The notes below the pieces were generated by a model. The model was not told the origin of the DNA and did not search any database. It saw only the letters and a program-made list of their open reading frames with translations. Position numbers and translations under genes: made by a program. From NCBI RefSeq assembly GCF_011067135.1, contig NZ_JAAMOW010000006.1, forward strand, positions 124,001 through 188,000: a stretch of 64,000 nucleotides of DNA, read 5' to 3'. Shown piece after piece: positions 28,915-48,810 of this stretch. This DNA is from Solimonas terrae (GTDB taxonomy: Bacteria > Pseudomonadota > Gammaproteobacteria > Nevskiales > Nevskiaceae). The first letter of the stretch is position 1, and each line of letters starts with the position of its first letter.

Positions 28915-28962
28915 CTCAGACGCTTCTTATTGGAGCTGGACGCATACTATTGTTCCTTTTCA
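28915..28962 (-). repeat. Solitary Tn7-like right end (older insertion)
   Basis: Two abutting 21-base repeats (28915-28935 and 28936-28956) are followed by CTTTTCA ending at 28962. Read on the minus strand they run TGAAAAG, GAACAATAGTATGCGTC, then a related copy with CAATAAGAAGCGTC. The outer repeat and terminus are identical to the right end at 48762-48788 and point the same way. It marks the end of an element that would extend leftward, into or through the catabolic cluster. The stretch 28767-28914 shows no gene. Confidence 0.6.
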
Positions 28963-28966
28963 AGGC
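28936..28966. repeat. 31-bp direct repeat, left copy
   Basis: This 31-base stretch begins CTGGACGCATACTATTGTTC and ends CAAGGC. It is identical to 48762-48792 in the same orientation, and the two copies bracket a 19.8-kb island. I read it as the outer part of a Tn7-like right end plus the flank AGGC. Confidence 0.85.
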
Positions 28967-29064
28967 TGACTCCGAACAATAAAATCCGTCGATAGCGACA
29001 GCGCAACTCATTGAAAATATTAGCCTCGACATTATCGACAGTTTTTGCAAAATCTGTCGAAGAT
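28967..29064 (+). repeat. Left end of the Tn7-like element
   Basis: From TGACTCC the sequence runs GAACAATAAAATCCGTCGA (28974-28992), matching the right-end repeat at about 15 of 21 positions. A second copy of the core, AAAATCTGTCGA, lies at 29049-29060 against AAAATCCGTCGA at 28981-28992. Several ATCGAC/TTCGAC steps lie between and after them. The stretch up to 29426 has no convincing gene. Confidence 0.5.
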
Positions 29065-30662: not shown

Positions 30663-33600
30663 CTAGTGATTGGTCGCTGGAGAATTTGGCGTTCCGTTGC
30701 CTAGCGGAATTCCCAACGGATTCACACTCGGATATCGGATGGGTGAAACGCCGCACTGGCTGTAGCACTGCTTGTGATAGTTGTCGATTGTCGAATCTGT
30801 TGGCGCGGTGTAGCAGTTCTTTCCAGAACTATCACAAAACGTCCCAACTTTACTTGGGTCTTTGCGCGCATTCTGGTCCGAATCGATCAAGCAACTTCTA
30901 ACGTTGTCCACTTTATCCTGCGGCACCCCCCACAGCAACGGGCTGGCGTATGGGTAGTTGCACATCATGGGAGCCGTGTAGCAGTAGTAACTCGACTGAC
31001 CGTGGCTCGCTGAGCAGGCTTGGCTGTAATATGCGCATTGTGTTGCTAGACCTTCTGGGTCCACGAAGCTCAGCGGATTGCCCTGGACATAGGCATAAGT
31101 GTTGATTCCGCCCTGCAGGCCGATCGGATCTGATTCGATATATCGACCTAGGGCTGGATCATAGTCCCGCGCGCCGTTATGGAATAGTCCGGATTCAGAA
31201 TCATAGTATTGGCCCGGATATCGAAGATTCCAGGTAAATTTGAAGAGCTGACCATTCGGCCGTTCATTTGGCGCACCACCGCCGAAGGGAACGGGGTCCC
31301 AGGCCCAGACTGCCTTCTTATTCGCATCGTCAATCTGCCGCGTCGCGTTGCGCCAGTCTGCATGGATGGCATAGACAAGATTGCCCACGGACAAGACCAC
31401 GGGCATGTCACCCAGATAGATAACCTCGGCGATGATCGTTCCTGAGCCGTTGTACTCAGCGATGAAATGACCTTCGCTGTCGTAGACGTAGTGGCTCGTG
31501 CTTCCGTCCAGCACCTTCTCCACACGCTCTCCCAGGCCATCGTATTTGTAACTGGCACTGTGGCTGCTTGAAGTAAAGGCCGACAACCGGCCGCCGGCAT
31601 CGTAGGTATACGCGCTTGACCCAGAGCTCGACGCGCTGCGACTGCCGTTGCTGTCGTAGGCGTAGCTGAGCCCCACACTTTCAATCACGGCCTGGCCAAC
31701 TCGGTTGCTGTTCGATTCAACCGTAAAATTCGTTGTTATGCCTGCAACCGTCTGTTGATCGCGGTTTCCGTTCGCATCGTACGAATAGGCAAAGTTACCA
31801 AGTGGATCGGTATAGCCCGTGACGCGATCCAATGCGTCATAGTCCAGCGTGTGCGAGTCCGTCAGTACCGAAAGGTTCCCGAGTGAATAGCCGGTGATTC
31901 GCGAACCGGCGTCGTACGTAATCGACGAATCGACCGGATCTGATGTGATGCGTCCATCCAAATCATAGCTGCGCCCAGTGGTTTCTCCGTTGGCGTGCGT
32001 CCAGGTTTTCGGGCCTCCGAACGGTTGGTATGCAATATTGCTGACAACAGTTTTTGTCGTTGATCCGCTCTTGAGCGACAGGCCAGTTATCTGCCCTTGG
32101 CTCCACCCGTAAAGAACGACCTTCCCGGACGGGAGCGTCATCGAAACCAACTGTCCCGTCACCGCATCGTAGCTCCAGCTCATGCTCGACGAAAAACTGC
32201 CGAGGACAAGCGATTTCTTGACGACGCGGCCGTGCTCGTCGTAGGCGAAGTCGAGCGTAGACCCACTCAAGCTGTCGACGACACGCGTCAGATGACCGAT
32301 CCCCAGCCCGTGCGCGGAATCATGCAGATCCCACGTCAAGCTTACGGTACTGCCGTCAGCACGTGTGACCAGCACGAGACGATTCAGAGCGTCGTACTGA
32401 TAGTTCGTGAGTTGGCCCTTGGCATCCTGGCGTTGCAGCACATTGCCGGCGCTGTCGATCTGCCCCTGCGTTGTGATTCCGGTGTCCGGACTATTGATCT
32501 GGCCGACACTGCCGAACGCATCACGCGCGTAGCTCGTATTCAAGCTGCGCGGATCGCTGATTCCGGTGATCTGGTCCAGGGCATTCAACGCATACGCGGT
32601 ATCGTTCTGGCTCGGATCAGTCACCCGATTCAGTCGATTCAGCGCGTCGTACCAGTTGGTCGTTTGATGCGAAAGCGGATCGCTGACGGTCTTTCGATTT
32701 CCGTTGGCGTCATACCCGAGAACCGTGGTTTCCCCGCTGTATGCACCAATGTCCTTCCACAGCCGATTCAGCGCGTCAAAGAGCTGCTGGTGGGTTTGTA
32801 CCAACACACCGCCGGCATCATGCACGTCCGTCTGCACGGCATTTCCCATGCTGTCCAGGGTGTAGTTGATGTGGTTGCCGAGCTGATCGCTGATCTGAGT
32901 AACGTGATGCGCGGAATCGTAGATGTAGCTGATCGCGCTGCCGTTAGGGAAGCTGATAGTCTTCAGATCGCCGGTCGGCCAATATGCAAGACTTGTCGTT
33001 TCAGAGGCTACCTGGATCGATTTAAGCCAGCCCCTTGGCCAGTAGGTCAGTTGTGTCACGACCCCGTTGGGATCGGTAACCATGGTCGGCCGGGCACCGT
33101 CGTCGTAGCTGTTGAAGGTCGTGACGTGCCCAAGCGCATCGGTGAGAGCGTGTAGCTGACCCGACTTGCCGTCGCCGGCTACGATCGGATAATAGCTGCG
33201 CGTCGTGACGTCGGCGACATCAGTGCGCGGACCATCGGTGATTTGCGCCTCACCGAAAGACGTGTAGTTTGAATACGTCGAGGTACGGCCGGCCCCTGTA
33301 GCCGTATCCGTTACGGCCTTGCTCACCAGATTGCCGTCCGAATCGTACTCGTAAGTCGTACTGCGACCAGGTTCGTTGATGATGTGCGGCAGTCGGAAAT
33401 TCGCGTCCCAGATCGTGGTGATTTCGCGCTGCTGAGGCGTGCCGAATGCCTCGATTCGGCTGGTCTGAAGTTGCCGGTCGTAGTCCCAGTCATACTTCGT
33501 AACGTTGCCGTTGAAGTCCGTGCTTTGGGTCATCAGGCCGTACTGGCCCAGGGTACGACTCTTGATTCCGGGCCCACACTCCTGGCACGGCTTGTCCACG

Positions 33601-35105
33601 GCCTTCAACACGAATCCGCTGGCGCCGGTGTCTTGATAGGTCAGCGTACGCTGAGTGCCTTTTGGATCGGTGACGACGATGCTCTCATCGCTCGCATAAT
33701 CGAAAAGGTAGTGCGGCGGCGTCGATCCAGACTGTGATCCGAGCTGAACGCTCGTTACTCGTCCTTGCGCGTCGTATGTCCAGGCCCGATACAGATCGCC
33801 ATTTTGGTCGTAATAGGCGGTCGGCTTATCAGGGTTTTGGGAATCTGCGTAGACGTATTTTGCCGCGGCGCCATCAGGTGACGTGAAAGTTTCGTTCATT
33901 ACGCCATCGACAAAGGTAATGGCGTCCGAGTAGTCACCGCCACCACCGGGGTACGTAGCTGTCGTGGTCCAGCTATTTAACGTGTTGGTCTGTGAATCAA
34001 TGTCGATCTCGCTATCGAATAACATCTCATGGCCAGCGCCGTCTTCGACCTTGGTCAGCGTCAGGAGTGACGCGCCGTCGGGGCTCGGGGCCCACGAATA
34101 GTGGAGACTTCGCCCGTTCTGGGCGCGATATAGAATCATTGCGCCACGGTCGTCGAATTTCTCCACCGAGCCATCGATCGCGCTCAAGATATAAGTGGCG
34201 CCGTCACTATCGGGCGCAGCCAAATGTTCAAATGTGGAGCTAATGTTCGCAGGAGCGATCCACTGTGCCGTTCCGCCGCTAAAGTCAGGTGCGCCGAATG
34301 TCACGACGCCGCCATCTGGCCAGCACACATCCCATTCGACCCAATCCAGATGTCGACCTGGACCTCGCGCTGCGCACAGCCTCGGAAGCGTCGGCAAGGG
34401 CCACGCCAGATATCCTGTTGCCTGCATGATATTTGGCTGAAATGACGATGACCCGAGTGGAAGGTCGACGTCGGCCACAGCGGACTCGTCGCCGTTGTTT
34501 TGCCTGACGCATTTTGTACAGTCGGTTCCCGGAGTTTCAGGAAGCACAGTTAACTCAATGTGATGCTTCTCAGCCACGCAGTCGCCGTTTGCCGGGGCGA
34601 AGGTCACCGTCACAGTCGATGTCGCCCCTGCCTGTGCATCGGGTCCAGCAAAAAAATCGACGTGGCCGACACCATCTGGCACCGGAATCGGATTCTGGTC
34701 TACCGTGTAGTGGACGCCCGGCGGAAGACCACCATCTACAACGACGGACACTGGGCCACAGGTACCGCCATCCGATATTCCAATTGTGCCTCGCGAGTTA
34801 AAGGCGTCCGTATTTATCGGAATTCCATAGGCTTCATTTACTTCGTGGAGCCCCGATTTTGCGGTCGTTCTGCGTACCGCCGTTGACGCTATTGATCCTG
34901 CGTGCGGGTCGGATACTCGCGTGCCGATCAGTTCCGGCATTGGCTGTACATACTTGCCTAGCGAGGTAGCGGCAATTAATACGCCAATCGACTGATCGGA
35001 ACGTTTCTCCACCTTGGAGACATCATTATCGGTTTGCGAACAACCCGAAGCAGCAATAAAAAGCAAGGCGGTAAGCAGCCGACAGGCTTCGCGAGCGGTC
35101 AACAT
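30663..35105 (-). CDS. RHS-repeat lipoprotein with variable Cys-rich C-terminus
   Basis: The protein has about 1480 residues from ATG 35105 (GAGG 9 bases upstream; the ATG at 35114 is an alternative). A lipoprotein signal ends IAASGC. An extracellular-type N-terminal region of about 330 residues is followed by many YD/RHS repeats of the type YDANGNR and YDALNRL, forming a shell. The RHS core ends in GRYIESDPIGLQGGINTYAY and VDPEGL. The last 126 residues are unlike the core, contain nine cysteines and resemble no toxin I recognise. RHS proteins often deliver such tips as toxins to neighbouring cells. Neither a secretion partner nor VgrG/PAAR is in the window. Confidence 0.88.
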   Translation of the reverse strand: MLTAREACRLLTALLFIAASGCSQTDNDVSKVEKRSDQSIGVLIAATSLGKYVQPMPELIGTRVSDPHAGSIASTAVRRTTAKSGLHEVNEAYGIPINTDAFNSRGTIGISDGGTCGPVSVVVDGGLPPGVHYTVDQNPIPVPDGVGHVDFFAGPDAQAGATSTVTVTFAPANGDCVAEKHHIELTVLPETPGTDCTKCVRQNNGDESAVADVDLPLGSSSFQPNIMQATGYLAWPLPTLPRLCAARGPGRHLDWVEWDVCWPDGGVVTFGAPDFSGGTAQWIAPANISSTFEHLAAPDSDGATYILSAIDGSVEKFDDRGAMILYRAQNGRSLHYSWAPSPDGASLLTLTKVEDGAGHEMLFDSEIDIDSQTNTLNSWTTTATYPGGGGDYSDAITFVDGVMNETFTSPDGAAAKYVYADSQNPDKPTAYYDQNGDLYRAWTYDAQGRVTSVQLGSQSGSTPPHYLFDYASDESIVVTDPKGTQRTLTYQDTGASGFVLKAVDKPCQECGPGIKSRTLGQYGLMTQSTDFNGNVTKYDWDYDRQLQTSRIEAFGTPQQREITTIWDANFRLPHIINEPGRSTTYEYDSDGNLVSKAVTDTATGAGRTSTYSNYTSFGEAQITDGPRTDVADVTTRSYYPIVAGDGKSGQLHALTDALGHVTTFNSYDDGARPTMVTDPNGVVTQLTYWPRGWLKSIQVASETTSLAYWPTGDLKTISFPNGSAISYIYDSAHHVTQISDQLGNHINYTLDSMGNAVQTDVHDAGGVLVQTHQQLFDALNRLWKDIGAYSGETTVLGYDANGNRKTVSDPLSHQTTNWYDALNRLNRVTDPSQNDTAYALNALDQITGISDPRSLNTSYARDAFGSVGQINSPDTGITTQGQIDSAGNVLQRQDAKGQLTNYQYDALNRLVLVTRADGSTVSLTWDLHDSAHGLGIGHLTRVVDSLSGSTLDFAYDEHGRVVKKSLVLGSFSSSMSWSYDAVTGQLVSMTLPSGKVVLYGWSQGQITGLSLKSGSTTKTVVSNIAYQPFGGPKTWTHANGETTGRSYDLDGRITSDPVDSSITYDAGSRITGYSLGNLSVLTDSHTLDYDALDRVTGYTDPLGNFAYSYDANGNRDQQTVAGITTNFTVESNSNRVGQAVIESVGLSYAYDSNGSRSASSSGSSAYTYDAGGRLSAFTSSSHSASYKYDGLGERVEKVLDGSTSHYVYDSEGHFIAEYNGSGTIIAEVIYLGDMPVVLSVGNLVYAIHADWRNATRQIDDANKKAVWAWDPVPFGGGAPNERPNGQLFKFTWNLRYPGQYYDSESGLFHNGARDYDPALGRYIESDPIGLQGGINTYAYVQGNPLSFVDPEGLATQCAYYSQACSASHGQSSYYCYTAPMMCNYPYASPLLWGVPQDKVDNVRSCLIDSDQNARKDPSKVGTFCDSSGKNCYTAPTDSTIDNYHKQCYSQCGVSPIRYPSVNPLGIPLGNGTPNSPATNH

Positions 35106-35631
35106 GCGGATCATCCTCAGATCAGGTGCCGCATTGTCATGACTCGTCGAATGCAGTGTGTCCGGAAGCGGACAAAAGGCGGGTAAGCGTCTGACGGCCG
35201 GCTCAGTAGCTCCCCTGGGACCTTGCCGTCGAATCAGGAGGGGGTCAGCTTTCAACGAGCGGAGAGAACATTATCTACGTCAGCTTCTTACAGGCGCCAT
35301 CTCTGCTCACAAGAGGCCGAACAAAACAGCCCGCACTAATCAACCTCGCACGGGCATCAACACTTAATCGCTATTCAGCTTCTCCAACAAGAAGAAGCGC
35401 TGCCATCCCGATCCCCTTTGTGATCTATGTCACGCTGAACCGAGCCTTTATCCAGGCTATTCGACTGGCTCTTAAGCATCTATGACATGGTCTCGTTTGC
35501 GCTTAGCAACGAGCAATTGCCGGGCGCGGCCCTGTAGACCTGAAATACTAGAGTCCCCGCGGGGTGAGTGCCGACGATGGGTCTACTTGCACTGAGGCCG
35601 TGAGCGGCGCTCGGGCAGATCGGAGAGGGAT
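35106..35631. other. 526-base gap with an isolated IS66-type end
   Basis: No convincing gene is visible between the divergent RHS and MazG-like genes. GTAAGCGTCTGACGGCC at 35183-35199 matches the IS66 terminal repeat at 29712 (GTAAGCGTCTGCCG) and faces right, but no transposase follows. The promoters of both flanking genes must lie here; I could not define them. Confidence 0.4.
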
Positions 35632-36795
35632 ATGGATATGGATAACTGTGGCGACCGTCGGACATCGGAGCTATTCAGGGAGTTCCTGGACAACGTCAAA
35701 AACACCAACGAACTGAAACAAGGCGACGTCACTGCAATCCGCTTCGGCATTTTTGGCGAGGTCGGCGGCATCGTGGCGACCGCCAAGAAACTGCGCCGCG
35801 ACGAGAAGGCCTTACCAGGCCCTCGGGAGGCTGCGATCGAAGAGTTTGGCGACGCGCTCTGGTACGTTGGAGCGCTCTGCCTCAACCGTGATGTTGGGCT
35901 TGACCAGGTATTCAGCGAGGTCATGCACGTAATTAACGAGTCGTACACCTTCGCAGGTTCTGCCGCACCGACCCCGAGCGCACGAGACCCTTTGCTCGTC
36001 GCACTGGATGCTCGCGACGAATCCTTGCTCACACTAGGGAAGGCCGCCGCTGACCTGCTCAATGTTGGCGAGGATCGCGAGGCCGAGCTGCGGCACCTAC
36101 GTGCCTTTGGCTGGGCCTACGCTGGCGCCCTGAGTTCCTGCGAACTCAATTTCGAGGTAGTGGTTCGGGAAAATATAGCCAAGACCAGCGGCGCTTTCGG
36201 CAAACCTGTCTTCAAGAACCTTCCCCGTTTCGATAATGATTACCCCGCGCACGAGCAGCTGCCCGACGTCATCGAGATCTGGTTTGTAGAGCACGACAGT
36301 GGCGTCAGCTATATGAGCTGCAATGGCGTGTTCGTCGGCGACCCGCTGACTGATGCCATCGAAGACGAGGACGGCTACCGTTTCCATGACGTTTTCCACT
36401 TGGCTAACGCCGCCTTCCTGAATTGGTCGCCCGTCACGCGGGCCCTGCTGAAACGAAAGCGCAAGAGCAAGAAGAGCACCGATCGCAATCAGGACGGCGG
36501 ACGCGCGACGGTCGTCGAAGAGGGCCTAACGGCTTGGCTCTTCGCCAAGGCCAAGAAGCTCGAGTTTCTGCAAGGCCAGAACAAGGTCGCCTACGACATC
36601 CTCAAGACGATCCTCGACTTCGTCACTGGTTATGAAGTCGACAAGGTCCCGCTCAAGCAATGGACCACGGCCATCCTCGAGGGTTACGCGGTGTGGCGTC
36701 AAGTCCATGCCAATCAAGGCGGTATCGTCACTGCGAATTGCCGCGATCGAACGCTCACTTATCAGCCCCTGCCCCCAGACAGAGTATCTAAGTAG
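35632..36795 (+). CDS. MazG-like nucleotide pyrophosphohydrolase-related protein with a C-terminal helical extension
   Basis: This 387-residue protein resembles MazG/all-alpha NTP pyrophosphohydrolases in its first 95 residues. FGEVGG lies at 41-46 and EEFGDALWYVG at 70-80, the latter matching the second metal-binding ExxxD motif. The first motif has Gly where MazG proteins usually carry the second Glu, so activity may be altered. Residues about 245-380 (YRFHDVFHLANAAFLNWSPV, then VVEEGLTAWLFA) form a conserved extension that often accompanies such domains. Initiation at Met3 (35638) would have a better-spaced GGAG. The operon with XRE/ImmA begins 114 bases downstream, so functional association is plausible. 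A role in cleaning or depleting modified nucleotides is inferred. Confidence 0.72.
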   Translation: MDMDNCGDRRTSELFREFLDNVKNTNELKQGDVTAIRFGIFGEVGGIVATAKKLRRDEKALPGPREAAIEEFGDALWYVGALCLNRDVGLDQVFSEVMHVINESYTFAGSAAPTPSARDPLLVALDARDESLLTLGKAAADLLNVGEDREAELRHLRAFGWAYAGALSSCELNFEVVVRENIAKTSGAFGKPVFKNLPRFDNDYPAHEQLPDVIEIWFVEHDSGVSYMSCNGVFVGDPLTDAIEDEDGYRFHDVFHLANAAFLNWSPVTRALLKRKRKSKKSTDRNQDGGRATVVEEGLTAWLFAKAKKLEFLQGQNKVAYDILKTILDFVTGYEVDKVPLKQWTTAILEGYAVWRQVHANQGGIVTANCRDRTLTYQPLPPDRVSK

Positions 36796-36849
36796 ATGAA
36801 TTTAAAGTGTCTTTTAAAGTGATCACCGTTTGGCGGAAGGTCGTTGCGG

Positions 36850-36899
36850 TTTGTTCGATTTTCGAACAAAATGACTTCAGTTCGTTAGAATGCCTAACG
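36850..36899 (+). promoter_or_regulatory. Candidate XRE operator/promoter: two palindromes
   Basis: TTTGTTCGA-TTT-TCGAACAAA (36850-36870) is a perfect 9-bp-arm palindrome. A second, CGTTAG-AATGC-CTAACG, covers 36883-36899 and contains TAGAAT, a plausible -10 box. They precede the carrier-like gene and its GGGAGG ribosome site. Repression by the XRE protein two genes downstream is the natural reading, by analogy with XRE-ImmA pairs. Confidence 0.55.
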
Positions 36900-36909
36900 G
36901 GGAGGCCCC

Positions 36910-37191
36910 ATGGATGCGATCAATGAAGGTGAACTGAAGCGGATGTTGGGTGACCACTGGGATTGCGAGATGGGAAAAACCGAGGACGGCGAGGAATCAC
37001 CGTTCCCAGTCGACAGCGGGATGGACTCGGTGTCGGCCGTACATGTCTTGGCCAAAGTCATGGAGCACAGTGGAGCAAAAAAGATTCCGGTGACGGTGAT
37101 ACGCAAGGGCGGTTACGTAGACAAGGATGACTTCGTGTCGACGCTTTCAGCGTCGTTGATGACGTTCTTTGCCGGTACGAAGAAGCACTAA
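36910..37191 (+). CDS. Small acidic protein, possibly acyl-carrier-protein-like
   Basis: The 93-residue protein starts 8 bases after GGGGAGG. The stretch SGMDSVSAVHVLAKVME at about 36-52 resembles the phosphopantetheine-attachment helix of carrier proteins (D-S-hydrophobic). The spacing to the following VTVIRKGGYVDKDDFV also fits, but the similarity is short and I do not claim modification. It is the first gene of a tight operon: XRE follows after 18 bases. It could equally be an antitoxin or a substrate of the proteases downstream. Confidence 0.6.
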   Translation: MDAINEGELKRMLGDHWDCEMGKTEDGEESPFPVDSGMDSVSAVHVLAKVMEHSGAKKIPVTVIRKGGYVDKDDFVSTLSASLMTFFAGTKKH

Positions 37192-37209
37192 TCCCAACCG
37201 GAGCAGGCG

Positions 37210-37572
37210 ATGAGCACCAATGAACAGAGCGAGCGGGTCACGCTCGGCCAGCGAATCAAGGAGACCCGTGACTATCTTGGGTTTTCGCAGGACGAAGTAG
37301 GCGAGGTTCTGGGGATTTCGAGATCCGCCGTGTCACTGATGGAGAGCGGGCAGCGGAAGACGGATGCACTAGAACTGCAGCGTCTCGCTAAGCTGTTTGA
37401 GCGGCCGATCTCTTTCTTCACCGGGGAGGATCTCGCCATGGAAAGCCGGAATGTCGCGATTCTGGCGCGCATGGCCGGGAAACTAGAGCCAAGCGACCTA
37501 GAGGAACTGCGCAAATTCGCCGAGTACCTTGAGGCGCGCGCGCAGGCCAAGGGTAAGGGCAAAAATGGCTGA
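37210..37572 (+). CDS. XRE-family transcriptional regulator
   Basis: This 120-residue protein has an N-terminal helix-turn-helix at about 14-70 (GQRIKETRDYLGFSQDEVGE, then ISRSAVSLMESGQRK), typical of Cro/C1 repressors. A short C-terminal tail follows. Its last 8 bases overlap the ImmA/IrrE gene, the hallmark of XRE-ImmA regulatory pairs in which the metallopeptidase cleaves the repressor on a signal. Its likely operators are the palindromes at 36850-36899. Confidence 0.9.
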   Translation: MSTNEQSERVTLGQRIKETRDYLGFSQDEVGEVLGISRSAVSLMESGQRKTDALELQRLAKLFERPISFFTGEDLAMESRNVAILARMAGKLEPSDLEELRKFAEYLEARAQAKGKGKNG

Positions 37573-38584
37573 TACCCGATCGGCGGAGCTGCAGGCGGCG
37601 GAACAGGCGCGACTGATCCACGATCAATACGACACGCGCAAACGTCTCGTCCACAGCTACGGCGGCCTGGATGTGTACCGACTGGCCGAGGATCTGGACC
37701 TACCGGTCCGCTTCACCAAGCTCAAGGGGCTGCTCGGGTTTTATATGAACGAGCCGATACCCGGTATCGGCGTAACAACGGAACGTCCACCAGCGGTCCA
37801 GCGCTTCACTTGTGCACATGAACTTGGGCACCACTCTCTGGGGCACGAGACGGTGCTGGACGTTGAAGCCAACATCGCCTTTGGTCGTGGTGCGCCGGCC
37901 GCCAATGACATAAAGGAATACCAGGCCAACGTGTTCGCGTCGCATCTGCTGATGCCGAAATGGCTACTGCATGATCGCGCCAAGGATCTATTGAAGGCCG
38001 GCCTGCGTATTCCCGACCCGCTTGCGGTCTACCAGCTTGCCTTGCGCCTAGGCACCAGCTACCAGGCAACCGTGAATACACTGTTCTGGCGCAATCTCAT
38101 CACGCGCACGCACCGCGCGAACCTTTTCGCGATCCAGCCGAAGGAGATTAAGCAGAATATCCTTATTGACGTGGCTCTCGCAGGAGACTGGCACCGCGAC
38201 GTGTGGTTGCTGACACCGCACGATGACGGCGGGGAAGTGCAAGCGCGCAGCGCCGACTTGATCGTCATGCGCGTCCCCGAACTAGCCGCTTCCGGCTACG
38301 TCAACGACTTCCGCGTCAGCGATTCGGCGAAGGTGCTTCTCACCCGTACAGAGGCACCTTCTGGGGCGGCAGAGCATATCGGCGGCGCCCTTGAGTACAC
38401 GGCGATCGCCAATCTGGAGTTAGCCGGCAAGTCGGCGATGACGGTCCGCCAACGCCGGCCATGGGAGCCCGCCGAGAATGCGTCCGTGGCGATGAGCCTG
38501 AACGTAGATGTCGCGGCAAAGATTGCCGGCGGTATGTCTCACGATGCCCGAGTGGCCCGCATGAAAGAGGCATCGGCGCTCTGA
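37565..38584 (+). CDS. ImmA/IrrE-family zinc metallopeptidase
   Basis: This 339-residue protein starts at ATG 37565 inside the XRE gene. The zinc motif HELGH is at 85-89 within CAHELGHHSLGHE, and the third ligand is probably in the helix DIKEYQANVFASHLLMPK near 118-135, as in ImmA and IrrE. The C-terminal 130 residues form an additional domain that could sense a signal. The stop TGA overlaps the start of the papain-like gene (TGATG). It is expected to cleave the XRE repressor, and may have other targets. Confidence 0.9.
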   Translation: MADTRSAELQAAEQARLIHDQYDTRKRLVHSYGGLDVYRLAEDLDLPVRFTKLKGLLGFYMNEPIPGIGVTTERPPAVQRFTCAHELGHHSLGHETVLDVEANIAFGRGAPAANDIKEYQANVFASHLLMPKWLLHDRAKDLLKAGLRIPDPLAVYQLALRLGTSYQATVNTLFWRNLITRTHRANLFAIQPKEIKQNILIDVALAGDWHRDVWLLTPHDDGGEVQARSADLIVMRVPELAASGYVNDFRVSDSAKVLLTRTEAPSGAAEHIGGALEYTAIANLELAGKSAMTVRQRRPWEPAENASVAMSLNVDVAAKIAGGMSHDARVARMKEASAL

Positions 38585-39231
38585 TGATCACTGCTTGTGT
38601 AGACCACTCCAGCAGTCTCGGCCCGGTACGCGACCAAGGCAGCCGTCCGACCTGCTTGGCGATCGCCGCCAGTGATGCACATGGTCGCCTGATTCCGCCC
38701 GGCACGATCCTGAGCCCTGAATACGCGTTTTACTTCGCGGCCGAGCGCCAGAAGCCGATGGCGTACTTCCGAGGCCTACATGCCCCGAAACTCTACGAGG
38801 CGATCGCACACGACGGTCAGCCAGCGGAATCAGCATATCCCTACCAAGACCGAGTGTCGGCATACGCCAAACTGGTGTTACCCCAGGTCGCCGCGAACGC
38901 GCCGATCTACCGGAGATCCGCGATACCGATGGCGCTGGCGGACCTTAAAACCCGCCTGATGGGCGGCATTACTCCGGTGCTGCACCTGGAGACGACGGAG
39001 GGCTTTCGCGACATCAACCAGCACGCCGGTGTTCTGGAGTACTCGGCCAACGATCCCGTCGTGGTGCGACACGCCGTCGTCGCCGTCGGCTTGGGCAAGA
39101 ATGCCGCTGGTGGCGAGTACGTGATGGTCCGCAACAGCTGGGGCTCCGGCTGGGGGCTGAACGGCCACGGCTGGTTGTCCGAGACGTATCTGAAACACCG
39201 CTACAAGGGCGGCGCGTACTACACGCCATGA
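38584..39231 (+). CDS. Papain-like (C1 family) cysteine peptidase
   Basis: This compact 215-residue protease lacks signal and propeptide, so it should be cytoplasmic and active as made. Gln18 and Cys24 occur in VRDQGSRPTCLAIA, His163 in VRHAVVAVGLG, and Asn184 in VRNSWGSGWG, a full Gln-Cys-His-Asn set. Cytoplasmic C1 proteases are uncommon in bacteria. Its start overlaps the ImmA stop, and its stop overlaps the next start by 4 bases (ATGA). This coupling suggests a fixed stoichiometry with the metallopeptidase and the thymidylate-synthase-like protein. Confidence 0.88.
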   Translation: MITACVDHSSSLGPVRDQGSRPTCLAIAASDAHGRLIPPGTILSPEYAFYFAAERQKPMAYFRGLHAPKLYEAIAHDGQPAESAYPYQDRVSAYAKLVLPQVAANAPIYRRSAIPMALADLKTRLMGGITPVLHLETTEGFRDINQHAGVLEYSANDPVVVRHAVVAVGLGKNAAGGEYVMVRNSWGSGWGLNGHGWLSETYLKHRYKGGAYYTP

Positions 39232-40010
39232 GTGAACTCTATAAAGTCGAATCGGTCGCGGAAGCTTGGCTCACTGGAGTTCGGCACCTGTTGAATAGTC
39301 CGGGCCACACCGATTACAACGTTATCCTCGAAATCTCAGCGCCGATGAAGGTCAATGACGGCGAGGCGATGGTCTTTAAGTCCGTTGACGCCATGCTGAA
39401 GACATCAGGTAACCAGACGCTGGAGACGGTTGCCAATACGATCTTTCCGCACGGCCTCTACCGACGCCACGGCACGCCGGCGTTCTACGACATCTACAAG
39501 AAAGAGGTCTATCCGGCTATCCGGCAGCTCCGCGAAAACCGCTGGGGAACGTATGCGCATCGCCTGATGCATCGCGAGGCCCCCAAGGGGAACATAGTCA
39601 ATCCGGTCGACGTGATTATCCACCGGATCAAGACGGAGACGCGGGGTGTGCAGAAAATGCGCTCGCGCTTCGAACTGAACATGGTCGATCCTTTCATCGA
39701 TCTCAACCTTTCGGATCCTGGGCTGCCTGGCGATACCTACCGGATGGGCGGCCCGTGCCTCAGCCATCTAAGCTTCAAAATGCGCGAGGACGGCCAACTG
39801 GCCCTGACAGCGTTTTATCGTTCGCACTACTACGTCGAGCGCCTGCTCGGAAACCTGATGGGCCTGAGCCACCTGATGTCGTTCGTCGCCAAGGAAGCAA
39901 ATGTTGCGCTCGGGCCGCTGACGGTGATTTCGTCCTATGCCCTTTTGGACACTGGTAAGGAACGCGGGATCGCGGAGTTGCGCAAGCTAGTCAATCAGTT
40001 CCAGCTGTGA
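39228..40010 (+). CDS. Thymidylate-synthase-like protein
   Basis: This 260-residue protein carries thymidylate-synthase family features in its C-terminal half. The nucleophile Cys177 lies in GGPCLSHLSFK, then comes DGQLALTAFYRSH with phosphate-binding Arg198, then Asn209 exactly eleven residues after that Arg, as in E. coli ThyA Arg166/Asn177. The Asp that follows Arg-Ser in ThyA is Tyr201 here. The N-terminal folate/dimer region is divergent. The match is closest to the archaeal type (YFRSNDAVRA pattern). It may bind or modify a pyrimidine nucleotide rather than make dTMP. It is translationally coupled to the papain-like gene. Confidence 0.72.
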   Translation: MSELYKVESVAEAWLTGVRHLLNSPGHTDYNVILEISAPMKVNDGEAMVFKSVDAMLKTSGNQTLETVANTIFPHGLYRRHGTPAFYDIYKKEVYPAIRQLRENRWGTYAHRLMHREAPKGNIVNPVDVIIHRIKTETRGVQKMRSRFELNMVDPFIDLNLSDPGLPGDTYRMGGPCLSHLSFKMREDGQLALTAFYRSHYYVERLLGNLMGLSHLMSFVAKEANVALGPLTVISSYALLDTGKERGIAELRKLVNQFQL

Positions 40011-40673
40011 TGCCAAAGCGCCAGTCCTGTTGGCGGCGCAGTGCTCCGAATAAATGCGGCGCAGGCCGGCGACGAAGTCGGCCTGTCCGCCATAGCTGGG
40101 ATGACGTACATAGGAGCATGGCAGCCCCGCGTTCGCCAGAGCGACATGCGCATCGTTGCCAATCGCCACGAAGTGACGCGGCTTGAGGACGTCCACCAGT
40201 TCCATGTTGAACGACCAGATCTGCGACAGCTCGCCGCGGGTATGGCTGCGATTGCTCAGCGGAGCCTTGGCTTCGTGTGGGTGCAGGGGAAACGCATTCC
40301 ACATGAAGGGCAGCTGGCCGATCTCCTCGACCATGCTCCAGACTACCGTCGCGGTGCGCTCGATCACCATTTCGCTCGCGGTGGCCTTCCGAATACCCCG
40401 CGTATGGAGACGGGCCGCCAGCAGCGGCAAATGCTTCTCGTCGGTCAGCGCGATGCCAGTACGGCGCCCGCCACGGTGGCCAAGATCGCGGCCAAACCAG
40501 ATCGAATCGACGCCCTGCTGGACGGCAAGTGTCAGGTAGGCGCGCAGGCTCTGCAGCCTGATCTGTGCCGACTCGGCATGATCGTGGATTGGGCAGATGT
40601 CCCGATACGGGTTGAAGACGTTCTCAAGTTGGACCGCCGCCAGGCGCGCGAGGAATCGGTCGATCGTCTTCAT
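39987..40673 (-). CDS. Uracil-DNA-glycosylase-superfamily protein
   Basis: The 228-residue protein starts at ATG 40673 with AAGGA 7 bases upstream. GRDLGHRGGRRTG at 61-73 occupies the place of the GEAPG-type motif. FMWNAFPLHP at 123-132 is the second substrate-pocket region. VRHPSYGG at 189-196 matches the HPS/HPSP DNA-intercalating motif. It converges on the thymidylate-synthase-like gene and overlaps its end by 24 bases. Base excision or base-modification sensing would fit the nucleotide theme of the neighbourhood. Confidence 0.75.
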   Translation of the reverse strand: MKTIDRFLARLAAVQLENVFNPYRDICPIHDHAESAQIRLQSLRAYLTLAVQQGVDSIWFGRDLGHRGGRRTGIALTDEKHLPLLAARLHTRGIRKATASEMVIERTATVVWSMVEEIGQLPFMWNAFPLHPHEAKAPLSNRSHTRGELSQIWSFNMELVDVLKPRHFVAIGNDAHVALANAGLPCSYVRHPSYGGQADFVAGLRRIYSEHCAANRTGALASQLELID

Positions 40674-40700: not shown

Positions 40701-40997
40701 CTACAGCAATGACAGTTGCTCCACATTCTGCGACGGGTGATCCCGCTCTGTCCTCAGGCGCGTCGACAGCCGAACCACCATCAGAGGATCAGCTTCCCGT
40801 GCCCCTAAAGCCAGCGCTTTGGCGCGCATGGTATCCGTGATGTCGTAGTGCGGATACTTGGTATGCCATTGGTACCACTCCGCCTTCAGTCCCAACCGCC
40901 TAGCGAACCGATGCAGCTCGCCGAGCGAATCCGCCAAGAGATGGCACCAAAGGCGTCCCCGCCATTCCCAGGCCGCATCATCGACGTATACCGTCAC
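40701..40997 (-). CDS. DUF4031 protein
   Basis: This 98-residue protein begins GTG ACG GTA TAC, giving MTVYVDDAAWEWRGRLWCHL, the hallmark of DUF4031; HTKYPHYDIT follows. Function is unknown. It is the first gene of a two-gene leftward unit with the uracil-DNA-glycosylase-like gene, 27 bases apart. The divergent 27-bp palindrome at 41023 lies directly in its promoter region, so the CopG-like protein probably controls it. Confidence 0.8.
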   Translation of the reverse strand: MTVYVDDAAWEWRGRLWCHLLADSLGELHRFARRLGLKAEWYQWHTKYPHYDITDTMRAKALALGAREADPLMVVRLSTRLRTERDHPSQNVEQLSLL

Positions 40998-41022: not shown

Positions 41023-41049
41023 GTATGAATTGTATCATACAATTCATAC
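41023..41049. promoter_or_regulatory. 27-bp perfect palindrome, candidate CopG/RHH operator
   Basis: GTATGAATTGTAT-C-ATACAATTCATAC is perfectly symmetric around 41036. It lies in the 66-base gap between the divergent DUF4031 gene (start 40997) and the CopG-like gene (start 41064). Its A/T richness contrasts with the surroundings. Binding by the adjacent ribbon-helix-helix protein is inferred. Confidence 0.7.
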
Positions 41050-41063
41050 GTTAATCAGCATTT

Positions 41064-41318
41064 ATGCCCAAACGGGATGGCGTTTTTCGTTCCACGTACT
41101 CGTTGCCACCGGATATCGGCGAGCGCATCGACGGATTGCGTAAAAGGGCCGCCCGCCACGATGCGCTCTTGAACAACAGCGAAATCATCCGTGCCGGCAT
41201 TGCCGCGCTCGAGGAGGCGACGGACTCCCATTTCAAGCAGCTGGCCAAAAGCGTCGTCAGGCTGACACCGGGCCCGGCGCCCAAGCGTCGAACCGCGATG
41301 CGCAAATCGGGATCATGA
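41064..41318 (+). CDS. CopG/ribbon-helix-helix-like small regulator
   Basis: This 84-residue basic protein begins MPKRDGVFRSTYSLPPDIGE. A beta-strand-like start is followed by two helices (ERIDGLRKRAARHDALLNNS, then EIIRAGIAALEEA), the ribbon-helix-helix pattern. The C-terminal tail is basic. It starts 15 bases after a perfect palindrome, as expected for an autoregulated repressor that also controls the divergent DUF4031/glycosylase unit. Confidence 0.7.
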   Translation: MPKRDGVFRSTYSLPPDIGERIDGLRKRAARHDALLNNSEIIRAGIAALEEATDSHFKQLAKSVVRLTPGPAPKRRTAMRKSGS

Positions 41319-43641: not shown

Positions 43642-44985
43642 CTAGTCACCATCAAAACGATTATGCGCCTCGATCAGGCTTCGAGCGGTCCGCTCCTTAT
43701 GCTTCTTGATCGACACAACCTTGCCAACGGCATCCGTCTTCCCGCGCTGCTCGGCGGCGAGCCGCCAGCCGCTCCGTTCTTCCGCGGTCATCGACTTTTC
43801 CAGCATGTGCCGCGTCAAGACATTCAGCTTCTGGTCGGCGGTCGCGGAGCCCGCCTTCGGGGCCGAGTCCTGTCGCAGCTCTTCCGGGCAATGCAGGTCC
43901 AAGCGCCGCGTGGATCTCCATCCGGCGCCATCTGCGATCTCATGGATCGCCTGGATGTCACTGCGCGCTGAGGCGAATGCCCGTGAGTGGAACGCGTCCC
44001 GCACGTGCTTCATCGTGATCGCCTTGGAAGCTGACTCCCTGGCGATCTCATAAGCGATGCCCAGCAGCCGATGCAGGTTCCGCGGCAGACATCCGCTGAG
44101 ACGACCAAGCTCGGCTGCCTCGCTTTCCGCGTCAAACCGGAGGTATGCCCGCAAAACCGATCCTGTTCCGTTGACGATCAGCCGCCAGCCCTCTGATTCT
44201 GGCCGCTCCGGGGTTAACACCGTCACTCGCGCGAGCAGTCGATCCCGGTCTTCCTGCGGGCGCTCCAGGAGCCGATGAATCAGGCTGAAATTACAGGCGT
44301 ATGCCACGGGGATGCCGGTCGCCCGCGCCGTCAGCAACAGGCTCGTCACACGAGAGTTAGCGGCGGACAGGGTACCGTGCTGGAACTCATCAAGATTCAG
44401 GCCGGCGACGCCGTCTCGGTATCCAATCTTCTTCAGCTGCGCCATCAGCCGCTCAACGTGGCTGCGGGCATCGGCTTCGATATCGAGCTGCTCGGCGATT
44501 CTGGCCAGCAGCCGACGATCCGAATCGCCCGGAACGACCGTGGTGGAAATAAATCCCCGAATCACCAGCGGATCGTGGGCATCGTCCAGTTGCGTGGTGC
44601 GGTCGTTGCCAATCAGCCTCTCCATCGCCCGGAACAAGGCTGACTTGCCGATGCCGGCGAGACCGACGATGCACATCGGCGGCGAGATGGGCACCTCCAG
44701 ATTCTTGTCGTAGCATTTTCGAAGGAATGCACGCCGATCGAAATACCGGGCGTCGGAGGCCGCTGCGGCATTCGCCCCCAGCGCACTCAAAACCGCAGCC
44801 GTCTTCGGCGTCACAATGAACAGCCGATCAAGTGCAATCCGTATCCGCTCCGCTGCAACTGCGGTGTTCACGGCATCTAGGTCGCTGACGGGCCGAGGAA
44901 TATGCTGGGCTATACGGACGATTTCATCGAGATCATCAAATATGATGAACCGGCTCAGCCACGGATTGTCGGAACGATCGTTCAC
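43642..44985 (-). CDS. TnsC/TniB-like AAA+ transposition ATPase
   Basis: This 447-residue protein has Walker A GLAGIGKS at 108-115 and Walker B-like GLNLDEFQHG near 195-204. A sensor/arginine region with CLPRNLHRLLGIAYE (residues about 305-320) is followed by a basic C-terminal tail. The arrangement matches TnsC/TniB target-selection ATPases, in which DEFQ replaces the DE-VQ of Tn7. The start overlaps the transposase stop by 4 bases, as tnsB-tnsC pairs often do. It looks intact although its transposase partner is not. Confidence 0.82.
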   Translation of the reverse strand: MNDRSDNPWLSRFIIFDDLDEIVRIAQHIPRPVSDLDAVNTAVAAERIRIALDRLFIVTPKTAAVLSALGANAAAASDARYFDRRAFLRKCYDKNLEVPISPPMCIVGLAGIGKSALFRAMERLIGNDRTTQLDDAHDPLVIRGFISTTVVPGDSDRRLLARIAEQLDIEADARSHVERLMAQLKKIGYRDGVAGLNLDEFQHGTLSAANSRVTSLLLTARATGIPVAYACNFSLIHRLLERPQEDRDRLLARVTVLTPERPESEGWRLIVNGTGSVLRAYLRFDAESEAAELGRLSGCLPRNLHRLLGIAYEIARESASKAITMKHVRDAFHSRAFASARSDIQAIHEIADGAGWRSTRRLDLHCPEELRQDSAPKAGSATADQKLNVLTRHMLEKSMTAEERSGWRLAAEQRGKTDAVGKVVSIKKHKERTARSLIEAHNRFDGD

Positions 44986-46091
44986 CGTCCCTCCGCGACC
45001 TTGCCGATGGCCCGGGTCTCGGCTCGCGCGTCCGTTGTCCTGACTTTCGCCCGCCCTTGTTGGCGGACTCTCGTTTCGGCGGCGCGCCCGAACACCGCTT
45101 CAAATCGTTCGTCCAAGTCGATGGCGACCGCGTCCTGATGTTCCCGCAACGCCGCCTCGTCGCTCTGATTGCGGCGATGCAGGGACTTGAGCTCCTCGAG
45201 CGTAAGGTAGGTTTGCGCCTCGCCGTCATCGAACGGGAGCGACCAGGTCACTTCGATGAGCGCCCCCTTCCATTCGATCCAAAATTGCCGGATGCACATC
45301 GGCATCACGTAGGCGGTGACGGTCAGCCTCCCCTCTGCGGCCGCAACATCGAGGATGCCGGAAGCCCACAGCGCCGGCGCCCGAAAGATCTCCCCGTAGT
45401 ACTCGATGCCGCTTGCTGTGCAAGGCACCTCGACCTTTGGCAGCAAGCGAATCGCATCCCACTCGTCGACGCTGCAGCTTTCTGTGCGACCGTACCGCTC
45501 AAGATACGTCCAGACGCCAATCGGCGTAGGCAGCACGCCTTCGGCCACCATTCTCGGGGTTCGTTTGACCTGGACGCTGCGGTTGGCAACCAGAAGCTTC
45601 TTGATTTCCTCGACCGCGAGTTCGATCGGCGACTTTGTCGAGCGCAAATAGGAGGGAGCACCGGAGAGCTTGTCGCGGCGGCGATGGCTGCTTTCGATGA
45701 TTGCCTTCGACTGGCCCGCGTAAGCGGGCGCCAGCTCCGAGAAAGCAATTTCTTCGAGGTCTATGAGCGAGCCTGGCCCTCGATCCACAACATGACGCGC
45801 CGGCCATCCTCGGGATGGCCACTCCGCCGGCGAGATGATGAGTCCGAGCCAAGCGCAATACTTGACCTTGTCGATGGCCATGCAAGCCAGTGCCATCTGA
45901 TAGGCCGCTGCTCGTTCGCTGTTAAGGCTGAATCCAATACCAAGAAGCATGCGGCTGACCGAGTCGATGATTCTTACGACAGTGAGCTTCGGAAGCAGCG
46001 CTCCGGTGATCCCGGTCGGATGGACCTCCAACACGTATGCGTCGGCTTCCACACACTCGAGCAGATTACCGAGATGTTCGGTGAACCGCAT
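44982..46091 (-). pseudogene. TnsB/Mu-type DDE transposase, N-terminus missing
   Basis: The 369 residues from ATG 46091 begin right at the catalytic core. Asp17 lies in EADAYVLEV, Asp103 in VVDRGPGSL, and Glu133 in AIIESSHRR, spaced like a retroviral-integrase fold. The beta-barrel and C-terminal TnsC-contacting tail follow. Complete TnsB proteins have some 250-300 further residues of DNA-binding domains in front. The open frame extends only to about 46166 before a TGA. The missing part and any tnsA have been replaced by the AbiJ-like/HNH pair, so autonomous transposition is unlikely. Confidence 0.78.
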
Positions 46092-46251: not shown

Positions 46252-47043
46252 GTGCCTGAACTGAAGCGGTCCCAGATCCGAGCTATCGAGGAAGCCATGG
46301 GCTATCCCCGCGGGTATGGATATGTCCTCGATTTTTCTGATCGCACCCTTGAGGAATTCTTCGATGAAGAATTTGGCGTGGAAATCTTTGCGTCTGAAAA
46401 CAAGATCAACGGTGGTTCCAAACGAAATTGCCTGACCACATTCTTGGTCCAGGCGGATTCCCACTTGGCACTTCGAGTGCTTCGCGCCTTGTGGGACCGG
46501 CGTGAGGGACTTCTGGAATCAGCACCGAGTTCGGAGGAGGCGGCAGCGGCACGTACTAAATCCCCGGCGTTCCAGGACGTAATTTCATCCCTCCAGGGCG
46601 ATCCGGCACCACTGACTACCGCCGGAGTCGAAGCATTTGCCAAAGACCGCACGCTTGAAGAACTGGTCGCCGATATCGAACGGACACTGGCCGCGAACAA
46701 GCCGGAGGTCGCCATTGATCATCTGCACACCTACTGCATGAAGAAATTTGCGCACCTGCTCGAAGTTCGCGGTGAAACGTGCGAGAAAGATGAACCGCTC
46801 CATTCCCGTTTTGGCCGCTATAGAAAATGCTTGGAAGCGGAGCAAGATCTTCACGAATTCACGACGCGCGCACTCAAGACGTTTATCAGCCTTTTGGACA
46901 GTTTCAACGACTTGCGCAACAACCATTCCTTGGCACACGACAATCAATTGCTCGCGCCGATGGAGGCCAGGTTTATTTTCAGCAGCATCAGTTCAATCTT
47001 GGTTTTGCTGCGTGCGCTCGAGGCTGGCCGATATGGCGAATAG
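46252..47043 (+). CDS. AbiJ-like abortive-infection protein with HEPN-like C-terminus
   Basis: This 263-residue protein starts with GTG at 46252 behind GGGGGG. Residues 10-85 (GYVLDFSDRTLEEFFDEEFG, then GGSKRNCLTTFL) match the AbiJ N-terminal domain pattern. Residues 185-262 form a helical Abi_C/HEPN-like domain in which RNNHSLAH (222-229) has the R-N-x-H spacing of HEPN ribonucleases. The gene overlaps the HNH gene by 11 bases. The pair resembles phage-defence modules. Function is inferred from family resemblance only. Confidence 0.75.
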   Translation: MPELKRSQIRAIEEAMGYPRGYGYVLDFSDRTLEEFFDEEFGVEIFASENKINGGSKRNCLTTFLVQADSHLALRVLRALWDRREGLLESAPSSEEAAAARTKSPAFQDVISSLQGDPAPLTTAGVEAFAKDRTLEELVADIERTLAANKPEVAIDHLHTYCMKKFAHLLEVRGETCEKDEPLHSRFGRYRKCLEAEQDLHEFTTRALKTFISLLDSFNDLRNNHSLAHDNQLLAPMEARFIFSSISSILVLLRALEAGRYGE

Positions 47044-48337
47044 AAAAAGTCAGGCGATGGGTGCTTCCGCCGTGGGACAGTCCTGCTGCGAGGGTGGCTG
47101 TCGCAGACGGGGATTAGCCTTCTGCGATTCCGTTGTCTCGTGGATGACTTTCGGACGTATTCGGATCAATCGCTGCTTGTTTTGCGATGCAAGGTTGAAT
47201 CCTGGCAGCTCCGAACATGTATTTCTTAGTGCGCTCGGGGGGCGGCTGGAGACGAAGCAAGCCCTCTGTGGGATTTGCAACAACCATTTCTCCTCATCTG
47301 CGGGCGATAACGTTGACAACGAGCTCGCCGCGGCATTCATAGCGATGCGTTGTGCATTGCGTATTTGGACGGGCCGTAAACAACCGCCGCCGACGATTCA
47401 GCGAGCCGGAACGATGGCTGACGGGAGTGAATTCGACCTTGCCCCCGGGTTTGTTCCAATTCTGCGTCCCGGAAAGGTCCCGAAGAACATCACTACGGGG
47501 CCAACGACGCTGGTGGCAAGAGATGCTGACGATGCGAAGCGACTTATAGGAATCTTGAACAAGCGCGGATTGAAGGCGGAGCAGCTGACCGCGCGGGCTG
47601 TTAGCGAGAAAGCTCCGGAGACACGGCTACGCGTGATGTTCGATGGGCCGAAGATCACCAGAACGTTGGCCAAGACAGCCCTCACCGCAGCGTGCGTGCT
47701 CTATGGAAACGCAATGGTTCGCCGAAAAGCCGACTGGTGTTTGTGTTTGGCAGTGAAATCAGGAACGCCAGATATTAACGACTATGCTGGCTGGGACTAT
47801 TCACAGGGGTGGCCAACGAACATTTGCTGGGTTCCTGCTGAGCAATGCATAGACAAATCAATGTCAGGATTTGAGCATGCTGTGATGTTTTCAGACGTCG
47901 GGGACGACTGGGTCGCCTATGTGTCATTGTTTGGTGATTTTAGGTTCTCGGTGAGGCTAGGTAAGAAGTCTGGTCTCCCACCAGAAGGGCTGGCCATTAA
48001 TCCACGAGGAACCAAACACTCAAGGCTGAGCGGGACATTCACCGTCTCTGAACACTTTGAACGGCACTGGAACGGCCGATTTTCGGCGGAACATGCGACC
48101 GTCTCTGCCGGCGTAACTGGGGCATTCAATAGCGTGCTCAGTAGATGGCAGGCAGAGTCCAGGTCGGAGTTGGACGAGAAACGCGATCAAGAACTAGGAC
48201 AAGCCCTATCTGCGGCCGGACCTGATCCAGGGGATATAGAGAAGGCGACTGCGCGCCTGCTTGGGAAGTGGATGACAATTGAACTTGGCGATCGTTGGGA
48301 AGAAGATCTGGATCCCGTGTCCATCGACAAGAAATAG
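47033..48337 (+). CDS. HNH-type nuclease-like protein
   Basis: The protein has about 434 residues from ATG 47033, inside the end of the AbiJ-like gene. CLFC (48-51), SSEHVFLSALGG with His62, and CGICNNHF (79-86) make a zinc-stabilised HNH fold of the HNH_5 type. The remaining 330 residues match nothing I know and may recognise a target. An alternative start at Met38 (47144) would still include the zinc motifs. The overlap suggests coupled expression with the abortive-infection protein. Confidence 0.75.
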   Translation: MANRKSQAMGASAVGQSCCEGGCRRRGLAFCDSVVSWMTFGRIRINRCLFCDARLNPGSSEHVFLSALGGRLETKQALCGICNNHFSSSAGDNVDNELAAAFIAMRCALRIWTGRKQPPPTIQRAGTMADGSEFDLAPGFVPILRPGKVPKNITTGPTTLVARDADDAKRLIGILNKRGLKAEQLTARAVSEKAPETRLRVMFDGPKITRTLAKTALTAACVLYGNAMVRRKADWCLCLAVKSGTPDINDYAGWDYSQGWPTNICWVPAEQCIDKSMSGFEHAVMFSDVGDDWVAYVSLFGDFRFSVRLGKKSGLPPEGLAINPRGTKHSRLSGTFTVSEHFERHWNGRFSAEHATVSAGVTGAFNSVLSRWQAESRSELDEKRDQELGQALSAAGPDPGDIEKATARLLGKWMTIELGDRWEEDLDPVSIDKK

Positions 48338-48788: not shown

Positions 48789-48792
48789 AGGC
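48762..48792. repeat. 31-bp direct repeat, right copy
   Basis: Identical to 28936-28966 in the same orientation. It ends 18 bases before the glmS stop codon complement at 48811. Confidence 0.85.
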
Positions 48793-48810
48793 ACACCGAA
48801 CTCCGGAGCC

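Follow-up and report, generated by a model that had tools for sequence, protein, structure and literature searches.

Gene content of the locus

The stretch analysed here, referred to as the window, comprises 64,000 nucleotides of Solimonas terrae (assembly GCF_011067135.1, contig NZ_JAAMOW010000006.1, positions 124,001 to 188,000 of the forward strand), and it carries a compact multi-gene module that includes a thymidylate-synthase-fold (TS-like) enzyme. Five genes follow one another on the plus strand, encoding an acyl-carrier-like protein (ACP; 36910-37191), an XRE-type repressor (37210-37572), an ImmA/IrrE (M78) metalloprotease with a C-terminal chagasin-like I42 domain (37565-38584, with the inhibitor-like part at 38252-38482), a papain-like C1 cysteine protease (38584-39231) and the TS-like enzyme with Cys177, Arg198 and Asn209 (39228-40010). 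A gene for a protein with a MazG-type N-terminal region and a MazG_C domain stands before them on the same strand (35632-36795). These six genes had been named in an earlier note made from the sequence, and family matches support the names: PF18722 (E = 1.2e-74) and MazG-like PHROG matches for the MazG_C protein; a predicted phosphopantetheine site at Ser40, and PF00550 in a homologue, for the ACP; HTH_3 (1.8e-11) and PADLOC RmrA (7.7e-15) followed by capH (1.5e-12) for the repressor; PF06114 Peptidase_M78 (8.6e-13) and PADLOC capP (1.5e-15, its highest-ranking PADLOC hit) for the metalloprotease; and PF00112 (8e-10) for the C1 protease. The tight packing described in that note was found as overlaps of 8 bases (XRE/ImmA), 1 base (ImmA/C1) and 4 bases (C1/TS), but ACP and XRE are separated by an 18-base gap.

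The earlier gene list was incomplete, as it had overlooked the chagasin-type domain on ImmA and three further features. An operator-like palindrome, TGTTCGA-N3-TCGAACA (36852-36868, with perfect 9-bp arms across 36850-36870), lies before the ACP gene. On the minus strand, a UDG-superfamily protein is encoded at 39987-40673, convergent with the TS-like gene and overlapping it by 24 bases, and a DUF4031 protein (40701-40997; PF13223, 7.7e-26) adjoins the UDG gene in one unit.

The gene set recurs with fixed order and strand

Loci were collected with the TS-like protein as bait, and all counts among the resulting 53 loci depend on that bait. A scan of genome contigs gave 108 confirmed loci, 80 of which were taken and combined with the window and eight plasmid loci to give 89; gene profiles were built from the window and the eight plasmid loci and run across all 89. 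Removal of 36 copies at 90% TS identity left 53 non-redundant loci (L001, L010 and L011 excluded). By profile search the core genes were found in nearly all of these (ACP in 48, XRE in 49, ImmA in 50, C1 in 48), accompanied by MazG_C in 44, UDG in 40, a 5-hydroxymethyldeoxyuridine (5-hmdU) kinase family in 8, DUF4031 in 7 and an Sfp-type phosphopantetheinyl transferase (PPTase) in one. Gene order and strand were identical in 45/45 loci with all five core genes, again in 45/45 when the search was run without a strand or distance filter (the filter had cost no locus a remote match), and every joint in these 45 loci was at most 30 bases, measured from stop codon to the start of the profile match. 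The UDG gene was on the opposite strand in 40/40 loci.

Such constancy of the five genes across 45/45 non-redundant loci means that the module is not a product of chance: the gene set is a real recurrent multi-gene module, and the gene-neighbourhood check that the earlier note had proposed for a system recurring in unrelated replicons was positive. Many loci lie on mobile elements, where unrelated cargo gathers, and some are near-identical copies of one element, as would be expected if the neighbours were independent genes that share islands by chance. Set against this, order, strand and short joints were kept after copy removal between loci whose TS rows are mostly 34-41% identical to the window TS, and the inhibitor domain and the protease are present or absent together; the recurrence refutes a chance assembly and leaves it practically no probability.

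The TS-like protein matched 22 of 72,556 plasmid records. C1 homologues were found on 16 plasmid records, all 16 of them also TS-like records, and ImmA matches covering at least 80% of the query were found on 15, all 15 also with C1. In scans that reach fairly close relatives only, the TS-like protein matched none of 50,697 phage records and no IMG/VR contig (with a single sequence or a five-sequence alignment), and neither MazG_C nor UDG had a phage match; a viral origin of the module was rejected on these results. The TS-like protein had no near match in E. coli genomes.

A repressor and metalloprotease of the CapH-CapP type

The metalloprotease residues His85, Glu86, His89 and Glu118 were each conserved in 50/50 loci. 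Before the ACP gene, the motif TGTNNNA-N3-TNNNACA was matched at 9 or more of its 11 positions in 44/48 loci, compared with 2.2% of shuffles, and none of 47 stretches inside ImmA reached this score. The exact operator pattern occurs once in the 4.42 Mb of the S. terrae genome, at the window site. The presence of this palindrome before the ACP gene, together with the XRE gene, suggests that XRE represses its own operon, which it probably autoregulates. A plain XRE-ImmA lysogeny switch was considered and dropped, as it left the other genes unexplained.

The capH and capP matches show an XRE/M78 pair of the kind found in cyclic-oligonucleotide-based anti-phage signalling systems (CBASS), and the XRE repressor with M78 metalloprotease is shared with both CapH-CapP and RmrA-type XRE-M78 pairs; the difference is that here the metalloprotease is fused to a chagasin-type domain, with a papain encoded next. 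CapP and CapH of CBASS respond to infection or DNA damage, and by analogy this suggests that the metalloprotease cleaves the repressor after a DNA-related signal. No CBASS cyclase was matched by PADLOC among 16 window proteins, and no cyclase or CBASS effector was evident by eye in the 25 largest neighbour clusters of the 53 loci.

The metalloprotease carries a chagasin-like domain and precedes a papain

Chagasins are inhibitors of C1 papain-like proteases. The ImmA proteins share with chagasin/I42 inhibitors the PF09394 domain and GxGG-like and RPW features at their C-terminus, and differ in that the domain is fused to a metalloprotease and encoded directly before the putative target protease. 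PF09394 passed its Pfam cut-off in proteins from Haloarcula, Bradyrhizobium and Sphingobium (E = 4.1e-11 for L003, 5.4e-9 for L097 and 1.7e-6 for L002) and fell short of it in L005, of Burkholderia. Among the 48 C1-bearing loci, 47 kept PW of the RPW motif. Against an I42 profile, six C1-bearing proteins (three of them from its training set) scored 81-123 bits; L006, L007, L094, L096 and L100, where no C1 match was found in any frame, gave at most 7.1 bits or no reported match.

The C1 protein has the papain family triad within a C1 domain (Cys24 in 47/48 loci, His163 and Asn184 each in 48/48). Its short length, and the alignment of residue 70 with profile position 74, leave no room for a propeptide. 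Since a chagasin-type domain is followed by a propeptide-less papain as the next gene, the two proteins resemble a protease paired with its inhibitor, in which ImmA-I42 would restrain C1.

Such a pair would also suit an addiction module that stabilises plasmids and integrative and conjugative elements, with the papain-like protease as toxin, ImmA-I42 as antitoxin, XRE as autoregulator and the nucleotide genes as passengers or targets. The position of C1 directly after ImmA-I42, the single exact operator site in the genome and the predicted conjugative nature of 13 of the 22 TS-bearing plasmid records are in keeping with this. In some loci, nevertheless, XRE, ImmA and TS persist where both C1 and any clear I42 domain are lacking, which shows that the protease pair does not form the core, and no known toxin-antitoxin pair matched the whole; we regard addiction as unlikely.

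A carrier-like protein is encoded with a thymidylate synthase relative

The window ACP matched the PP-binding family only at E = 0.072, short of the cut-off. The Streptomyces homologue in L006 matched PF00550 above the cut-off (1.2e-7), that in L007 fell below it and that in L005 had no match; Ser40 was kept in 40/40 rows, giving a conserved serine in a PP-binding family, and structural matches to the carrier-protein fold were weak. A profile seeded on the ACP matched L094 (1e-8) and L086 (2.1e-3), though not the protein in the ACP place of L100, which was assigned as a carrier solely from its position and from visual inspection. Small carrier-like frames in the ACP place of L086 and, less clearly, L072 stand outside the count of 48/53. 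PPTases were present in L003, L097 and L100, three of the 14 annotated module loci.

The TS-like protein matched the methanogen-type thymidylate synthase family TIGR03283 of NCBIfam (E = 1.3e-12). Its 47.7 bits fall far short of the curated cut-off (174.55), which makes it a relative, not a scored member of the family, and a role as a true thymidylate synthase supply gene was rejected on this score. The window protein had no PF00303 match in Pfam at E up to 0.1. It has the TS fold with the catalytic cysteine (Cys177, 53/53 loci), the catalytic arginine (52/53) and the base-reading asparagine (53/53) of the superfamily. The residues that the earlier note had singled out for mutation, namely Cys177 here, Cys24 of the C1 protease and His85 and Glu86 of ImmA, were thus all found to be conserved. 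The best structural neighbours included the CMP hydroxymethylase MilA and the phage dCMP hydroxylase AfhB. In the structural work as a whole, inputs A4 and A5 comprised 44/52 and 39/47 non-window rows. Identity to MilA, AfhB and ThyA is 13-14%, and unlike these three the TS-like gene is encoded with a carrier protein in 48/53 loci. A second TS-family protein lies at L013:9557-11197 (PF00303, E = 8.4e-22), and part of it may be Nmad1 (E = 0.032, under the cut-off); this protein and its relatives in L008, L014, L019, L083 and L086 are encoded no further than about 5 kb from the module.

A carrier and a PPTase are typical of metabolite pathways, and together with the structural likeness to MilA and AfhB this would fit an enzyme set that modifies the DNA of the element itself (anti-restriction) or makes a small nucleoside-type metabolite from a uracil nucleotide and the carrier. 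No loading, tailoring or export genes were evident by eye among the recurrent neighbours, and a UDG-superfamily gene in the module opposes the keeping of modified uracil in its own DNA; both outcomes are very unlikely in our judgement.

UDG, 5-hmdU kinase and MazG_C genes point to pyrimidine nucleotides

The window copy of the UDG-like protein had no Pfam match, and its placement in the UDG superfamily comes through homologues: that of L002 matched PF03167 above the cut-off (3.4e-6), that of L008 fell just below it, and the pocket residues Asp62, Asn125 and His190 were each conserved in 40/40. Among the 53 loci, UDG was found in 40, the 5-hmdU DNA kinase family in 8 (L003, L006, L007 and L100 among them), both in none and neither in 5. 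Because the kinase family replaces UDG and the two never occur together, the substrate is suggested to be uracil or a modified uracil. Genes of the dCTP deaminase family (L004, L067, L097, L099) and the dTMP kinase family (L003, L100) were also found, and the enzymes as a whole point to pyrimidine nucleotides, as the earlier note had argued.

MazG_C lies downstream on the minus strand in 38 of the 39 loci with both UDG and MazG_C, the window being the sole exception (upstream, plus strand). The window MazG_C is closest to copies in operons that encode TIR, Nmad2, MazG_C and UDG proteins (46% and 45% identity; the next by score had 37%, among the best 8 of 45 matches). The MazG-like gene that the earlier note placed in the system belongs to the family set, at 44/53 loci, but the window copy is atypical in both sequence and place and was rejected as a standard module member. 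MazG_C occurred on 34 plasmid records, and the first four of the matches listed were not TS records. Two of those four carry the separate four-gene operons, at L092:4882-7775 and L093:4894-7787; their Nmad2 matches were strong (E = 1.8e-70 and 4.2e-70), the TIR protein of L092 is of the ThsB type, and the neighbours include CBASS, SIR2 and other TIR genes in L093 and another TIR gene in L092.

These enzymes might instead attack directly phages that carry a modified uracil, such as hydroxymethyluracil, in their DNA or nucleotide pool, with UDG excising the foreign base, MazG_C destroying the phage dNTP, and the TS-fold protein and carrier acting as sensor or scavenger. The DNA glycosylase Brig1, of the UDG superfamily, excises glucosylated hydroxymethylcytosine and is a proven anti-phage effector (PMC11078745). 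The mutual exclusion of UDG and the 5-hmdU DNA kinase family, and the existence of another operon that unites MazG_C-UDG with Nmad2 and a TIR protein, lean the same way. The TS cysteine, arginine and asparagine are, however, conserved beyond what a mere binding pocket would seem to require, and a carrier protein, with a PPTase in three loci, is hard to fit with a pure sensor; direct attack is possible, if doubtful. With Brig1 the module shares a UDG-superfamily protein in defence regions, and the action on a modified pyrimidine would be common to both; as described, Brig1 gives immunity alone, whereas the UDG here is part of a fixed multi-gene module (PMC11078745).

A small protein encoded at 41064-41318 (plus strand), with a perfect 27-bp palindrome ahead of it (41023-41049), may regulate the UDG unit; it had no family match in Pfam, NCBIfam, PADLOC or PHROG. 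A different small protein was found on the UDG side in 14/53 loci.

A protease-gated conflict module is proposed

We propose, tentatively and at less than an even chance, that the genes form a mobile, inducible conflict module, most likely anti-phage, in which proteases gate the modification of nucleotides or DNA. The parts supported by sequence are the operator with XRE, the ImmA/C1 pair, the carrier, the TS catalytic residues and the unit of UDG or kinase with MazG_C, and we infer the chemistry, trigger and anti-phage activity of the module. Upon infection or DNA damage, ImmA would cleave XRE, as in CapP/CapH, so that the operon would be derepressed and C1 freed. The carrier and the TS-like enzyme would make a C5-altered deoxyuridine nucleotide from dUMP, which MazG_C, and in some loci also dCTP deaminase, may help to supply. 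Once incorporated into replicating DNA, the altered uracil would be converted by UDG or the kinase to a lesion that blocks replication or breaks the strand. The papain would probably end the response, by degrading XRE, ImmA or the carrier, or kill the cell.

A more specific version, which we consider quite unlikely, would have the phosphopantetheine arm replace or supplement folate and deliver a group to deoxyuridine C5, or join it through its thiol. The carrier-derived uracil adduct in invader DNA synthesised upon infection would then become a lethal lesion through the glycosylase or the 5-hmdU DNA kinase, gated by a metalloprotease with its own papain inhibitor, in what would be an undescribed class of immunity.

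Several observations weigh against a protease-gated conflict module. Five loci (two of Streptomyces, two of cyanobacteria and one of Rhizobium) lack both C1 and a clear I42 domain, and L068 and L084 have only TS, kinase and MazG_C, with no ACP, XRE, ImmA or C1; some loci therefore do without the protease part. In the Streptomyces pair a short tail survives, with PW where the RPW motif would stand, and its I42 scores are weak, at 7.1 bits (E = 2.7e-4 for a database size of 1) and 5.4 bits (9.1e-4), so the loss there may be decay and not clean absence. In the window copy itself the I42 match is weak (PF09394, E = 0.11) and the domain is assigned there only through homology. The data in which the operator motif was counted had also served to define it, an unguided palindrome scan gave a perfect arm of at least 7 in only 25/48 loci and not always at the site, and the UDG unit had no operator-like site in 40/41 loci, L006 being the exception with one site shared between divergent MazG_C and ACP genes. 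No carrier-loading enzyme was evident by eye in the 25 largest neighbour-frame clusters, which were not family-searched. Defence, toxin or caspase genes, judged by eye from annotated names, flanked 7 of the 14 annotated loci (L002, L003, L007, L008, L009, L097 and L100, the other seven having none), and no known defence system matched the module as a whole.

L067 is a further reduced locus, with TS, the 5-hmdU kinase family, MazG_C and ACP and without XRE, ImmA and C1; its TS frame is interrupted.

The immune or addiction function put forward in the earlier note is likewise putative. If the proposal is true, a horizontally moving module common to bacteria and archaea unites three fields that are seldom combined: the chemistry of carrier proteins, uracil chemistry of the TS type, and a switch of two proteases into which a papain inhibitor is built. 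Families that now lack a clear role, among them MazG_C and the I42-tailed ImmA proteins, would gain one. It predicts inhibition of C1 by the ImmA tail, phosphopantetheinylation of Ser40 and modified uracil upon induction.

Relation to described systems

The module can be placed in the broad kind of nucleotide-centred conflict systems, and its protease switch is unusual. PADLOC, at E up to 0.1, gave no match for the window MazG_C, ACP, C1, TS, UDG or DUF4031 proteins. Among the units reported with DefensePredictor, those with TS, deoxynucleoside monophosphate kinase, 5-hmdU kinase and NMAD domains were validated as anti-phage, MazG and MazG-C systems were predicted and unvalidated, and UDG is named in the legend of Fig. 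6F (PMC13092281). The kinds of domain shared with our module are TS (likened by domain name alone), 5-hmdU DNA kinase, MazG-C and UDG, and the difference is that the words 'acyl', 'papain' and 'ImmA' do not occur in the main text of that report (PMC13092281). We found no publication describing ACP, ImmA-I42, C1 and TS together, an earlier mention being possible in Burroughs 2015 or in the 2013 DNA-modification survey.

Hosts and mobility

Bacterial hosts of the module included Proteobacteria, Acidobacteria, Verrucomicrobia, Myxococcales, Dehalococcoidia, Phycisphaerae, Neobacillus, Streptomyces and cyanobacteria, and an archaeal host was found in Haloarcula. Within this spread the module is rare and patchy: the TS-like family was present in 2 of 100 genomes of relatives of S. 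terrae (its own included) and in none of 10 others of the genus. In a phylum sample, 15/249 genomes matched (own included), 12 of them only from about residue 80-120 on and in frames of 503-786 amino acids; as these 12 matches are partial and in longer frames, three of the 249 genomes look like holders of the TS-like family. These longer frames (G101, G131, G142, G146, G154, G162, G170, G178, G182, G194, G202 and G206), which align over part of their length with the C-terminal half of the profile for the TS-like protein, are possibly a longer TS-like family.

The module is mobile, as the earlier note had held. That of L048 (5,177 bp) was 100% identical in 10 other contigs, assigned to Sphingopyxis, Sphingobium, Novosphingobium, Aurantiacibacter and a Sphingomonadaceae bacterium, an identity that indicates recent transfer. 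The sphingomonad element is very recent and widely spread. Across the sphingomonad contigs L046, L048-L061, L063-L066 and L074 the 5.2 kb module was 99.7-100% identical, and in eight sphingomonad contigs 16.66 kb including flanks was 100% identical to L048.

The island around the window module

The earlier note had placed the genes in a transposon. What was found is a 42-bp direct repeat (93%; 28936-28977 and 48762-48801) that bounds an island of about 19.9 kb adjoining the 3' end of glmS (48811-50649), and a TniB-like gene, but no proven transposase. GC content is lower over about 28.9-48.8 kb (0.54-0.61 in 2-kb windows, against mostly 0.61-0.68 outside). When the right end was compared among 12 genomes, the glmS side was matched in 11 including its own, and the island side only in its own. 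On the minus strand at 43642-46091 are genes for a TniB-like AAA ATPase (447 amino acids, TniB below cut-off) and then a 369-amino-acid protein, which had no Pfam, PHROG or PADLOC match; the two are possible transposition genes of the island. On the plus strand at 46252-48337, overlapping frames encode Abi_C and HNH-type proteins (the latter below cut-off), which had no PADLOC match and are a possible second defence pair. Adjoining the module on its other side, an RHS-repeat protein of 1530 amino acids is encoded on the minus strand at 30663-35255.

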